39,786 nucleotides of DNA from an uncultured Gammaproteobacteria bacterium (GTDB lineage Bacteria; Pseudomonadota; Gammaproteobacteria; GCA-002705445; GCA-002716945), in assembly GCA_913048065.1 (NCBI GenBank), contig CAJWVG010000006.1, positions 1 to 39,786 on the forward strand, in the 5' to 3' direction. This document shows, in pieces, positions 29,548 to 33,804 of the stretch (positions are counted from its first letter, which is position 1; every line of letters starts with the position of its first letter). The position numbers were made by a program, and so were the translations under genes. The notes below the pieces were generated by a model. The model was not told where the DNA came from and did no database searches. It saw only the letters and a list, made by a program, of their open reading frames with translations.

Positions 29548-30794
29548 TAGTTCATACCTCTAAAAATTTCAGATGGGCGTATGGAGGAAGCTTTTAAAGC
29601 TGGGTATATTGCTGAAAACAAAGTAAGAATGAATGTGAAAAATACTATGTAACTAATATCACTATATTTTATTAGAGAAGGTATTTCTGTCAGATGATAT
29701 ATTTCAGCCGGCATTAAATTAATATGAAATATTTGCTCTATTGTCGTAATGATAGCATCAATATTCACTGAGAGAATAATTCCAAAAAATACCCCTAAAA
29801 CAATTCCTATTAATCCTAAGAAAAGACCTTGGAATAAAAATATCAAAAGCACGTCAAGTTTTTTTGCTCCAAGTGTTATTAATATTGCTATCTCTTTTTC
29901 TTTATGTGTAACCAGCATGAGCAAAGATGAAACTATATTAAAAGCTGCAACTGCAACTATCAGCATTAAAATTATAAACATAACACGTTTTTCATTATTA
30001 ATTGCCACAAATAAGGATTGATGGGTAAAACTCCAATCTTGTGCATAATAATCCATTGAAGTCTGATTAAAATTAGAAGAAAAATTATATGAATCAAGTG
30101 GGTTCTCAAGTTTTATCCTTATAGCATCAATGTTTATATGTGATTTATTAGATTTTTTTAGTGAATATAATAGATTATTAAGATTGATAAATGCATATGC
30201 ATTGTTATATTCATAAATACCAACATCAAAAATTCCAGCTACTCGATAAGTATTTTTGAACTGAACAAGTTTAGAGCCATTTCTAGATGGGAATTGCATA
30301 AATAACTCAACATCATCATCTAGCTTAACATTTAATTTTAATGCTATTCCATTACCTAGTATTATATTATCTTGAGAATCTTCCAGTTCTGCATATGATC
30401 CAGAAGTTATATTTTTATGTGTTATACCAACATTTCTTTCCAGTTCTGGTTCTATAGCCCTAACCATTGCATTGGTGCTAGAGATGTTAGATGATATAAG
30501 AGATTCTCTCTCAATATATGGAGAATAGCCCAAGATTTTATTTTTATTTTTAAGATTTTTAAACTCTGACAAGTCGTAATTTTCAGATGTAGGATTTTTA
30601 TATACAGTGACATGAGAGGTAAAACCTAACACCTTTTCTCTCAACTCTTTCTCGAATCCATTCATAACTGATATTACAGTTATTAAAATAGAGATGCCTA
30701 TTACTATACCTAGTACGGAGATTTTTGATATGATGTTTATGAAACTGGAATTATGTTTCGACCGCATGAACCTATATGCTAATAACAATCGCAT
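29547..30794 (-). CDS. lolC: Lipoprotein-releasing ABC transporter permease LolC/LolE
   Basis: A 415-residue permease with four membrane helices: one at the N terminus (ISKISVLGIVIGISILITVISVMNGFE) and three at the C terminus around residues 270-400, with a large periplasmic domain between. This is the LolC/LolE/MacB arrangement. The N-terminal pattern AYRFMRSK followed by a helix and ELREKVLGFTSHVT is typical. Only one permease gene is present beside lolD, so the complex may use a single LolF-like permease as a homodimer, or a second gene may lie elsewhere. LolC versus LolE cannot be settled from sequence reading alone. Confidence 0.88.
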   Translation of the reverse strand: MRLLLAYRFMRSKHNSSFINIISKISVLGIVIGISILITVISVMNGFEKELREKVLGFTSHVTVYKNPTSENYDLSEFKNLKNKNKILGYSPYIERESLISSNISSTNAMVRAIEPELERNVGITHKNITSGSYAELEDSQDNIILGNGIALKLNVKLDDDVELFMQFPSRNGSKLVQFKNTYRVAGIFDVGIYEYNNAYAFINLNNLLYSLKKSNKSHINIDAIRIKLENPLDSYNFSSNFNQTSMDYYAQDWSFTHQSLFVAINNEKRVMFIILMLIVAVAAFNIVSSLLMLVTHKEKEIAILITLGAKKLDVLLIFLFQGLFLGLIGIVLGVFFGIILSVNIDAIITTIEQIFHINLMPAEIYHLTEIPSLIKYSDISYIVFFTFILTLFSAIYPALKASSIRPSEIFRGMN

Positions 30795-30834
30795 GTTAGA
30801 ATTATATCATAGCTTGATGATTAACAAAATAACT

Positions 30835-31905
30835 ATGGAAATAGATAATTTAAATACAGAATTTGAATCAAATACGCTAATTATGAATTGGCCGTCTTGT
30901 TATAAATTAGAATATTATTGGAATGATTTGTTAATAATATACTATCAGATCTTAGATATATTAATAAAAAATAATAAACAAATTATCCTAGCATACCAAC
31001 CTGGCGATGATATTGAAAAAGATTTAAAAAATATAGGTTATTGCTTAAGTAATATCAAAAGTAATTATCTAAAAAATATTCTTCTTCATGAAATGGAATA
31101 TGATGATATTTGGGTGAGAGATTTTGCACCACTACAACTTTTTAATGATGCGATTAATAAATATAAATTTTATAAGCTTAAATTTAATGGATATGGTAAG
31201 AAATATATATTTAAAAAGGATGCATTATTTTCAAAAAATATTATAACTTATCTTCAAAGCATTGACAGAGTCATAAAAAGCCATAAAAATATTGAATTGC
31301 TTGAGTTATGTGAAGATTTGGTAGTAGAAGGAGGTAATATTACAAATGATGAGCAATGTTTGATTATGAATAAAAATCCACTAATAATACATAATGATAT
31401 GTCTTGGTCAAAAATACATCCAATTTTAGAAAAAGCATTTAAAAAAAATAATCTTAATAAATATTATACAATTGATGTTAAAGGGTTAATTGGAGATGAC
31501 ACAAATGGACATATAGATAATTTAGTCAGGATATATGATGATAAAATATTATATATGTCTATAAAAGATGTTAATCATCCTAATTATCTAAGAATCAAAA
31601 ACCTTCAAAAACAACTTCAAGAAATAATTCAGAGGCCCAATAATTTTAATGAAATAATTCCAATTCACCATGACAATGATGATGTGGTAAGAAATAAAAT
31701 AGGAAATATTTTGCCATTCTCATATTTAAACTATATAAGAGTTGAGGATATCGTAATTATTCCAGTCAATAAAAAAACGAATGAACAAAAGAAAAAGTTT
31801 CTTAGGGATGTTTTCTCTGATTCTAACATTTACTTTATTGAATGTTCAGCCTTATTGAATCAATTTGGAAGTCTACATTGTTGTACAGCAAATATAAATA
31901 TATGA
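30835..31905 (+). CDS. aguA: Agmatine deiminase family protein
   Basis: This 356-residue member of the peptidyl-arginine-deiminase-like (PPAD/AguA) family would hydrolyse agmatine to N-carbamoylputrescine and ammonia. Matching motifs are TLIMNWPSC near the start, DDIWVRDFAPL (substrate Asp region), VEGGNI, DTNGHIDNLVR (catalytic Asp/His) and GSLHCCTANI at the C terminus with nucleophile Cys349. The ATG at 30835 is chosen: the frame is open further upstream, but those codons run antisense through the lolC start. The neighbouring gene encodes the next enzyme of the pathway, and ATGA couples their translation. Sequence identity with well-known AguA is visibly low. Confidence 0.85.
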   Translation: MEIDNLNTEFESNTLIMNWPSCYKLEYYWNDLLIIYYQILDILIKNNKQIILAYQPGDDIEKDLKNIGYCLSNIKSNYLKNILLHEMEYDDIWVRDFAPLQLFNDAINKYKFYKLKFNGYGKKYIFKKDALFSKNIITYLQSIDRVIKSHKNIELLELCEDLVVEGGNITNDEQCLIMNKNPLIIHNDMSWSKIHPILEKAFKKNNLNKYYTIDVKGLIGDDTNGHIDNLVRIYDDKILYMSIKDVNHPNYLRIKNLQKQLQEIIQRPNNFNEIIPIHHDNDDVVRNKIGNILPFSYLNYIRVEDIVIIPVNKKTNEQKKKFLRDVFSDSNIYFIECSALLNQFGSLHCCTANINI

Positions 31906-32762
31906 ATAATAAACTAAAAATAAAAAATAAAGACTTGATTGATATTGTATTGATTCAAAATAAGATTAAATTAAGCTATAAAAAAAATATTGATTTATTA
32001 CATAATACCATCAGAAGCATTAAAATAAAAAATACCACGATAATTGTCTTGCATGAGCTTTCATATTTGCGATATATAGGAATAACGAAAAATTCTGAAT
32101 ATAAATCTCATGCAATTAGTATAGAGTCGAATATTATAAAAAATCTTACTGCTCTCTGTAAAAAGAAGAATGTGTATCTCTTATTTCCATTCTTTGAAAA
32201 ATCTAGAAACAGATTATATAACTCAACAATCATGATCTCTTCCAATGGGGAAATAGTTGGAAGGTATAGAAAAAAAAATATACCAGACGAGACATGTTTC
32301 AATGAAAAATATTACTTTAACAATTCTAGTAATAAATTTCAGGTTATAAAAATTAATAACTATAAAGTTGGACTGATGATTTGCTGGGATCAGTGGCATG
32401 CTGAATCTTATATTCAACTAAAAAAATTAAAAGCCGATATCATATTATGCCCGACATCCATAGGTGTGGCTTTTAATAAAAATAAAAATATTAGTATACC
32501 TAATGAGAAACAAAAATGGATTAATGTAATATCAGCAAATAGTCTTATGACAAATATACCAGTCGTTGTGGTTAACAGAATAGGTTTAGAGAAACTTAAT
32601 GATAATATGATAAAATTCTGGGGTATGAGTTTCGTGACAAATGCATGTGGGGATATAATATATAGAGCTGGAACAAAACCAGTAGTAAAGACTTTAACCA
32701 TGAACCTCAAAGAAAATAAAAACTCAAAAAAAATGTGGAATTTCATTGAAAAATTGTCATAA
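31902..32762 (+). CDS. aguB: N-carbamoylputrescine amidase (nitrilase superfamily)
   Basis: The 286-residue enzyme would cleave N-carbamoylputrescine to putrescine, CO2 and ammonia. The nitrilase triad is visible: E52 in LHELSYLRYIG, K124 in GRYRKKNIPDE and C161 in MICWDQWHAESY. The CWDQW wording is typical of the AguB branch. The start ATG overlaps the agmatine deiminase stop (ATGA), so an earlier in-frame ATG at 31842 is rejected. The pair forms a two-step arginine-decarboxylase-dependent route to putrescine. No speA/adiA is in the window. Confidence 0.88.
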   Translation: MNNKLKIKNKDLIDIVLIQNKIKLSYKKNIDLLHNTIRSIKIKNTTIIVLHELSYLRYIGITKNSEYKSHAISIESNIIKNLTALCKKKNVYLLFPFFEKSRNRLYNSTIMISSNGEIVGRYRKKNIPDETCFNEKYYFNNSSNKFQVIKINNYKVGLMICWDQWHAESYIQLKKLKADIILCPTSIGVAFNKNKNISIPNEKQKWINVISANSLMTNIPVVVVNRIGLEKLNDNMIKFWGMSFVTNACGDIIYRAGTKPVVKTLTMNLKENKNSKKMWNFIEKLS

Positions 32763-32849: not shown

Positions 32850-32904
32850 TATCTTTAAAGATGGCTCTAAAAGCTTATCTATCACTCTCTATTAGAGGAG
32901 ATAT

Positions 32905-33063
32905 ATGAAAATATTAACAATGATTGTTATAGGTATGTTTGGTATAAGCAATTCTTATGCTGATGTTGTCGGTTCAGACTTTGAATCAAATGCACCAAAA
33001 GTAAAAGAAATGATATTTGCTGATGAAGAACCTGCTGAAGAAGAAGAGCCAGATTGTGAATAA
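32905..33063 (+). CDS. Small secreted acidic peptide, unknown function
   Basis: A 52-residue gene with an excellent ribosome binding site (GAGGAG, 4 nt before the ATG). Residues 1-19 form a signal peptide (basic start, hydrophobic ILTMIVIGMFGI, then SYA cleavage pattern). The predicted mature part is 33 residues with 13 acidic and only 2 basic residues, ending EEPAEEEEPDCE, with a single cysteine next to last. I do not recognise the family. It is 20 nt upstream of the exported rhodanese-like gene and probably co-transcribed with it. Its coding character is supported by the ribosome binding site, signal peptide and operon position. No homology is claimed. Confidence 0.75.
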   Translation: MKILTMIVIGMFGISNSYADVVGSDFESNAPKVKEMIFADEEPAEEEEPDCE

Positions 33064-33083
33064 AAGTATTAAGGGAGACGAGT

Positions 33084-33755
33084 ATGAAAATTAAATCGAT
33101 ATTAAGTGTTATTGCATTATCAGTATTTACTTTCTCTACTGCATTTGCCGATAAACCGGTAGCAATTTCAAAAGCTGATGGACCCAATTCATTAGAAATA
33201 GGAATTTCAGTAGATGTTGGAAATCATAAGATAATGAGAAATCAAAATAATAAAAACACAGTAAATCCTGCGTTCGCTAAAACATCAAGACCATGTCCGC
33301 CATTTTGCGTACAACCTATGCAGCTAAGACCTGGAGTTGAAACTATAGGTGAACAAGAGATTATTCATTATGCTGTAATGATGAGCAAAGGTATGAAAAT
33401 GCCAGATGGATCAGAAATTATGATAATTGACTCAAGAACACCAGATTGGACAGCTAAAGGAATGATTCCTGGTGCAGTAAATATTCCATGGACAGACCTA
33501 AGCGAAGCTAAAGGTGCTGACCCAATATCAATAGCAGAAATCATGACAGAAAAATTTGGTGCTGAAGAACAAAATGGTTTGTTTTATTACAACAATGCCA
33601 AAACTTTAGTGATGTATTGTAATGGAATGTGGTGTGGTCAATCACCTAATAATATTAAAAGCTTGCTTAAATATGGGTATCCAGCTGATAAAATCAAATG
33701 GTTCCGTGGTGGCATGCAAACCTGGGAAATCCTTGGTTTTAATACTGTAAAATAA
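33084..33755 (+). CDS. Exported rhodanese-like domain protein
   Basis: A 223-residue periplasmic protein. The signal peptide ends AFA after residue 22. The middle holds a CPPFC motif (Cys71 and Cys75) inside RPCPPFCVQPMQLRPGVETI. The C-terminal rhodanese domain includes IMIIDSRTPDWTAKGMIPGA and the active loop YCNGMWCGQSPNN with Cys179 and Cys184, then GYPADKIKWFRGGMQTWEILG. Rhodaneses carry sulfur as a cysteine persulfide or act in redox or structural roles. The extra cysteines suggest disulfide or sulfur exchange in the periplasm, which is inference. GGGAG lies before the ATG. A strong terminator follows the gene. Confidence 0.88.
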   Translation: MKIKSILSVIALSVFTFSTAFADKPVAISKADGPNSLEIGISVDVGNHKIMRNQNNKNTVNPAFAKTSRPCPPFCVQPMQLRPGVETIGEQEIIHYAVMMSKGMKMPDGSEIMIIDSRTPDWTAKGMIPGAVNIPWTDLSEAKGADPISIAEIMTEKFGAEEQNGLFYYNNAKTLVMYCNGMWCGQSPNNIKSLLKYGYPADKIKWFRGGMQTWEILGFNTVK

Positions 33756-33773
33756 CTAGTATTAAATTAATTA

Positions 33774-33804
33774 AAAGCAGTACAGAAATGTGCTGCTTTT
33801 TTTT
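33774..33804 (+). terminator. Strong rho-independent terminator after the rhodanese gene
   Basis: AAAGCAGTACA pairs with TGTGCTGCTTT (11 bp with one G-T pair) around a GAAA tetraloop and is followed by eight or more T residues up to 33804. This is the clearest terminator in the window. Its T-tract runs directly into the mfd start codon at 33805. Confidence 0.9.

Follow-up and report, generated by a model that had tools for sequence, protein, structure and literature searches.

A family of small, predicted secreted peptides ending in E-P-x-C-x is encoded before SoxL-type rhodaneses and may carry sulfane sulfur

SoxCD is absent from a large number of sulfur oxidisers, some of them marine or symbiotic, and the question addressed here is by which route the sulfane sulfur of SoxY reaches storage or the cytoplasmic Dsr pathway without it. 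SoxY, the folded carrier subunit of SoxYZ, acts in the periplasm together with its partner SoxZ and bears its reactive Cys on a flexible C-terminal arm ending in GGCGG. DsrC and TusA are small, folded cytoplasmic proteins that carry sulfur on Cys; DsrC has a Cys in the penultimate position. The sulfur globule proteins (Sgp), small secreted proteins of sulfur oxidisers, form a structural envelope and abound in Gly, Asn and aromatic residues. In Allochromatium vinosum, the exported rhodanese SoxL (Alvin_2171; D3RVS9) is encoded in the gene order soxX-A-K-L (PMC3368242). The protein has been proposed to take the place of SoxCD by shifting the sulfane atom off SoxY and onto sulfur globules (PMC3368242; see also PMC5573963), and the SoxL passages of the literature searched name no acceptor of the sulfane sulfur from SoxL. 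A predicted secreted peptide with one terminal Cys, encoded before SoxL and elsewhere before a DsrE-family protein, offers a concrete and testable candidate for this acceptor, and its family goes unrecognised by the protein libraries searched.

The peptide gene was found in a 39,786-nucleotide stretch of DNA from an uncultured gammaproteobacterium (here called the window), with the following features:

32895..32900, + strand: Shine-Dalgarno sequence GAGGAG of the peptide gene (-9.1 kcal/mol, the window's strongest)
32905..33063, + strand: gene of the SoxL-associated EPxC peptide, 52 residues, conserved upstream of soxL
32905..32961, + strand: predicted signal peptide of the peptide, cut between SYA and D (read from the sequence; helix at residues 2-28 in the model)
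33043..33060, + strand: C-terminal motif E-E-P-D-C-E with the invariant Cys51, the sole invariant column in 41 peptides
33073..33077, + strand: Shine-Dalgarno sequence GGGAG of soxL (-8.4 kcal/mol, second strongest in the window)
33084..33755, + strand: soxL-type rhodanese gene, 223 residues, predicted signal peptide cut between AFA and D (PF00581; relatives in sox operons)
33294..33308, + strand: CPPFC motif with C71 and C75, both invariant in 49 homologues
33618..33644, + strand: active-site loop CNGMWCGQS with C179 and C184, both invariant in 49 homologues
33773..33800, + strand: intrinsic terminator closing the pair (12-pair stem and T run, the window's best)

The two genes are adjacent on the same strand with a gap of 20 nt. 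Ribosome-site strength was calculated as the energy of the duplex with the anti-Shine-Dalgarno sequence; 31 longer genes of the window were scored, and the peptide gene separately. Compared to the values listed for the peptide and rhodanese genes, the best of the other 30 genes reached -6.8 kcal/mol. The terminator at 33773-33800 ranked best among those found, and the terminator search of the window detected none between the peptide gene and soxL. We infer that the two genes are co-transcribed as one unit, and the secreted pair is probably well translated. The energies and the terminator ranking agree with the first-pass annotation, which had singled out an adjacent pair with signal peptides, strong ribosome sites, a short gap and the best terminator.

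The rhodanese matches PF00581 with an E value of 5e-12 (46.6 bits versus a cut-off of 22.2). Its AlphaFold model has a mean pLDDT of 85.8 and was matched to ordinary rhodaneses in a fold search; a search of solved structures gave one weak match, to a single-domain rhodanese. Homologues were gathered from 80 genome contigs and relatives. C71, C75, C179 and C184 occur in every one of 49 aligned homologues, the first two inside T-S-R-x-C-P-P-F-C and the last two inside C-N-G-x-W-C-G-Q-S. The CPPFC motif and the two-Cys active loop pointed out earlier are both present and conserved. A signal-like N-terminus with an AFA cut site can be read in the window rhodanese and in homologues, and export is predicted. 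The PQQ_CXXCW family (TIGR03865) likewise consists of exported rhodanese-like domains with two active-loop Cys, but the match to it is weak (24.7 bits versus a cut-off of 128), and loop spacing and gene context differ.

The exported, four-cysteine rhodanese of the first-pass annotation stands; what had been missed is its SoxL-type identity, as indicated by relatives in sox operons. A relative with 73% identity over 182 residues (in G026) belongs to a cluster that reads soxC, soxD-like cytochrome, soxX, soxY (ending GGCGG), soxZ, soxA, soxK, rhodanese, soxB. SoxC and SoxB of this cluster reach the NCBIfam cut-offs; the match to the SoxAX-binding protein does not. A Methylophaga MAG (L069) carries the same cluster, soxA-K-L-B included, and in another genome (G287) the genes run peptide, soxL, soxY, soxZ, soxA. 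Since the place of the relatives after soxK matches the A. vinosum order, we classify the window rhodanese as SoxL-type, an assignment made by gene context. In contrast to the A. vinosum gene, the window copy lies away from the sox cluster: it adjoins mfd and is preceded by the peptide, with soxXYZA on another contig.

SoxL also co-occurs with SoxY. In a sample of 274 genomes spread evenly over the class, SoxL (threshold, E below 1e-25) was detected in 66 and SoxY in 146, with SoxY present in 62 of the 66 genomes containing SoxL (odds ratio 23, p 4e-16, kinship ignored). Viral contigs contained one remote rhodanese only. Plasmid matches were alphaproteobacterial rhodaneses with 30-39% identity, and no sox genes are annotated beside the three that were inspected. 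Note that on the Thioclava plasmid the second gene before the rhodanese is small and hypothetical.

The host genome (gammaproteobacterial, 1.04 Mb, 83% complete) has soxXYZA on contig C2 together with a sulfur transporter of PF04143, SoxB on contig C18, and three DsrC-family proteins. No SoxC over the cut-off was detected in this 83%-complete genome, with a weak 34-bit match beside soxB, and relatives that are 90-99% complete repeat this pattern of sox genes without SoxC over the cut-off. The host looks like one of the thiosulfate oxidisers without SoxCD, whose sulfane sulfur would have to exit SoxY by another route. On contig C2, a gene for a 184-residue lipoprotein-like protein without a Pfam or NCBIfam match (L115:7663-8217) overlaps the end of soxA and is kept beside soxA in G011.

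To describe the pairing of peptide and rhodanese, we took a census of 11,558 stop-to-stop frames from the fetched loci, in which some genomes are counted twice. The C-terminal motif ends 66 of these frames; 64 of the 66 have a signal-like N-terminus, and 65 sit just upstream of a rhodanese of the SoxL family. The two frames lacking a signal-like N-terminus are one upstream of soxL with its N-terminus out of frame (L109) and an unrelated frame on the minus strand (L071), the only one of the 66 not upstream of soxL. Manual counting in the window's family found an intact peptide directly upstream of soxL in 20/20 testable genomes (the contig of G003, which ends inside the peptide-soxL gap, falls outside this set), and a search for broken peptide frames in close relatives returned none at these 20 loci. 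Outside the family, the peptide precedes soxL at ~41 of 64 testable loci of Gamma- and Betaproteobacteria, a figure comprising 31 EPxC peptides, one variant, seven Litorivicinus-type variants and two near-misses beyond the strict pattern. Thus, the conserved small frame that the first-pass annotation had suggested seeking upstream of homologous rhodaneses exists. In one close relative (L022; G004 contig C6, 49589-50256), the peptide is intact and soxL is split into two frames, by a frameshift or an assembly error.

Many soxL loci are without the peptide, including the complete, soxCD-containing sox clusters of G026 and L069, and the peptide is therefore not essential to SoxL as such. Some genomes with a peptide-less soxL locus carry another soxL copy that is preceded by the peptide (L117, L118, L120, L121). 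Tandem soxL genes, often behind a single peptide gene, occur at L047-L049, L057, L060, L072, L073, L075, L077, L078, L085, L095 and L108; the first encodes a soluble exported protein and the second a lipoprotein with a lipobox.

SoxL and SoxY are both present in 17/17 compiled peptide-bearing genomes (kinship ignored). Because a few of these genomes were found by looking beside SoxL, the peptide-SoxL figure is partly biased. A peptide HMM had low sensitivity (at E 0.001 it matched 12 of 274 genomes, including some false ones), and scans of reading frames and a search with a degenerate DNA pattern were therefore added. The search with the DNA pattern, which is independent of SoxL position and free of that bias, gave 23 matches in 18 of 369 genomes, versus 6 for a reversed control. 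Of these 23, 15 neighbour SoxL and two neighbour a DsrE-family protein that is secreted; the remaining matches are lone copies, fall at contig ends or are spurious.

The peptides form a conserved gene family linked to sox and other sulfur genes, with a pattern in the upstream frame scan of a signal-like N-terminus, a variable disordered spacer and the end E-P-[DEN]-C-[DEN]. Among 41 aligned members, the Cys is the only invariant column. In the set of 41 peptides from the locus count, lengths span 49-96 residues, Glu stands at -3 in all 41 and Pro at -2 in 40, and a single Cys follows residue 22 in 24. After the predicted cut, the window peptide has 33 residues, 13 of them acidic, and one penultimate Cys at position 51, exactly as counted in the first-pass annotation. 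Acidity holds for this copy but not as a family hallmark: over their last 25 residues, 15 of the 41 peptides in the latter set carry a net charge of 0 to -2 with E-P-x-C still kept, and the conserved core is the C-terminal E-P-x-C-x. Median dN/dS was 0.35 for the last 12 peptide residues, 0.70 for the remainder and 0.065 for SoxL, placing the last 12 residues, on sequence comparison, under stronger constraint than the rest. In the predicted model, the peptide has no secondary structure beyond residue 28. Litorivicinus-type peptides before soxL (L076, L079, L087, L089, L091, L092, L093, L097) end in EDSCSDEGESL and carry an extra CADGKPC. Marinobacterium-type peptides (L046-L049) share CDDGSLC and end in EPECD, thereby bridging the Litorivicinus-type and EPxC variants.

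No tested peptide reached the curated cut-off of a Pfam or NCBIfam family, and the SoxL passages of the literature searched contain no description of it. The family appears to be undescribed in these libraries and in the parts of the papers covered. The enzyme is of a known kind, and so is the likely job of the peptide, protein-borne sulfur transfer, which would here be done by an unusual, unfolded secreted molecule.

A second partner was identified in three genomes, where a peptide copy lies immediately before the gene of a secreted DsrE-family protein:

L119:1119-3171, peptide and DsrE-family locus of G097
L187:1010-1662, peptide and DsrE-family locus of G162
L206:1366-2011, peptide and DsrE-family locus of G211

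All three DsrE-family proteins exceed the PF02635 cut-off. They are close relatives of one another (51-61% identity) and share, in the alignment of the three, one conserved Cys and no CXXC. At L119, a gene for flavocytochrome c sulfide dehydrogenase lies upstream of the pair. The wider DsrE-like family is mostly without the peptide, which is present at 2 of 30 inspected loci. The rhodanese-peptide pairing noted earlier is a conserved pair, but this second partner had been missed. Thus, the peptide tracks periplasmic sulfur-handling proteins, not the rhodanese alone.

Of the readings considered we favour, at about even odds, a sulfur relay of the kind suggested in the first-pass annotation: the peptide would be a small periplasmic persulfide carrier, its terminal Cys taking sulfane sulfur from SoxL and hence from SoxY. 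The pair would then belong to the periplasmic thiosulfate-oxidation machinery. Where SoxCD is absent, SoxL would strip the sulfane sulfur off the SoxY arm, hold it as a persulfide on C179 and pass it to the peptide Cys. The peptide would act as a secreted carrier with little structure, its disordered tether closing with E-P-[DE]-C-[DE] and providing a diffusible thiol. In some genomes its Cys may take sulfur from the secreted DsrE-family protein instead. As a next step, the peptide persulfide would either enter stored sulfur or serve as a donor that feeds import towards the Dsr route of the cytoplasm. The gene family, its conservation, its linkage to sox and other sulfur genes and the invariant Cys are observed, whereas the transfer of sulfur, the way it runs and the place where it ends are proposed. 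As in sulfur carriers, a conserved Cys (invariant in the 41 peptides) sits on a mobile segment (the tail unstructured in the model), and the genes are linked to those of sulfurtransferases, mostly soxL and in three genomes the DsrE-family gene. The peptide-less soxL genes beside soxCD in G026 and L069, two cases, fit a peptide that matters where SoxCD is absent. More tentatively, the EPxC peptides might represent a new class of secreted, disordered persulfide carriers for two or more unrelated periplasmic sulfur proteins (SoxL and a DsrE-family protein), and the missing acceptor of SoxYZ sulfane sulfur in organisms without SoxCD.

The peptide resembles SoxY in its predicted periplasmic location, its Sox context and a Cys on a flexible C-terminal end, but it has no folded domain, no Pfam match to SoxY and no GGCGG end, ending in EEPDCE. 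With DsrC and TusA it shares small size and a Cys that would carry sulfur; in contrast to them, it is predicted to lack structure and to be secreted, and it matches neither in Pfam, the DsrC fold PF04358 included. Like Sgp, it is small, secreted and from sulfur oxidisers, but it has a Cys terminus and no Gly/Asn/aromatic-rich repeats.

The terminal Cys could alternatively serve in redox chemistry, making mixed disulfides either with the DsrE-family protein or with SoxL, at CPPFC or at the second Cys of the loop; it would thereby protect, resolve or reduce the enzyme rather than carry sulfur. The four invariant Cys of SoxL, arranged as two pairs, are consistent with such a thiol partner, as are the mostly lone Cys of the mature peptides, which would suit intermolecular disulfides, and a thioredoxin-like gene after soxL at L044. 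However, a disordered peptide with a lone Cys would be unusual as a reductant, general linkage to redox genes was not seen, and the DsrE-family partner offers one conserved Cys without a CXXC in the three sequences; we consider this role unlikely. The acidic tail in the window's family (13/33 residues) and the acidic neighbours of the Cys would also suit a peptide that binds metals or cations, or one that tethers or scaffolds SoxL with its Cys as metal ligand or covalent anchor. With acidity unconserved among members that keep E-P-x-C and metal genes absent from the inspected neighbourhoods, such a function seems quite improbable.

The frame is very short, and everything before its last 12 residues changes quickly (dN/dS about 0.70), as might be expected of a leader or chance frame that makes no working protein. 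We reject this reading as highly implausible, since the signal peptide and C-terminus are kept across Gamma- and Betaproteobacteria, the gene has the window's strongest Shine-Dalgarno sequence with no terminator before soxL, and the peptide also occurs with another partner. A RiPP precursor seems unlikely, since the inspected neighbours (agmatine deiminase, N-carbamoylputrescine amidase, Mfd, MscS) include no maturation enzyme, and a lipoprotein anchor was rejected because the window peptide is without a lipobox. A partnership with Mfd or the putrescine genes was likewise discarded: the genes flanking soxL differ between loci, and Mfd is still its neighbour in some remote loci that lack the peptide. 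These genes are therefore taken as neighbourhood only. Note that overlapping agmatine deiminase-like and N-carbamoylputrescine amidase-like genes lie upstream of the pair (window 30694-32762). They score far below the curated NCBIfam cut-offs, and some remote loci show them in the same arrangement ahead of soxL.

A few partnerless copies of the peptide were also found, which weigh against the carrier reading. Those at L180/L195, and perhaps L205, lie beside an endonuclease-like gene, and those at L181/L197 beside a convergent gene for a W/N/G/P-rich secreted protein. This protein (L181:817-1326), which has no family match, resembles a sulfur globule protein.
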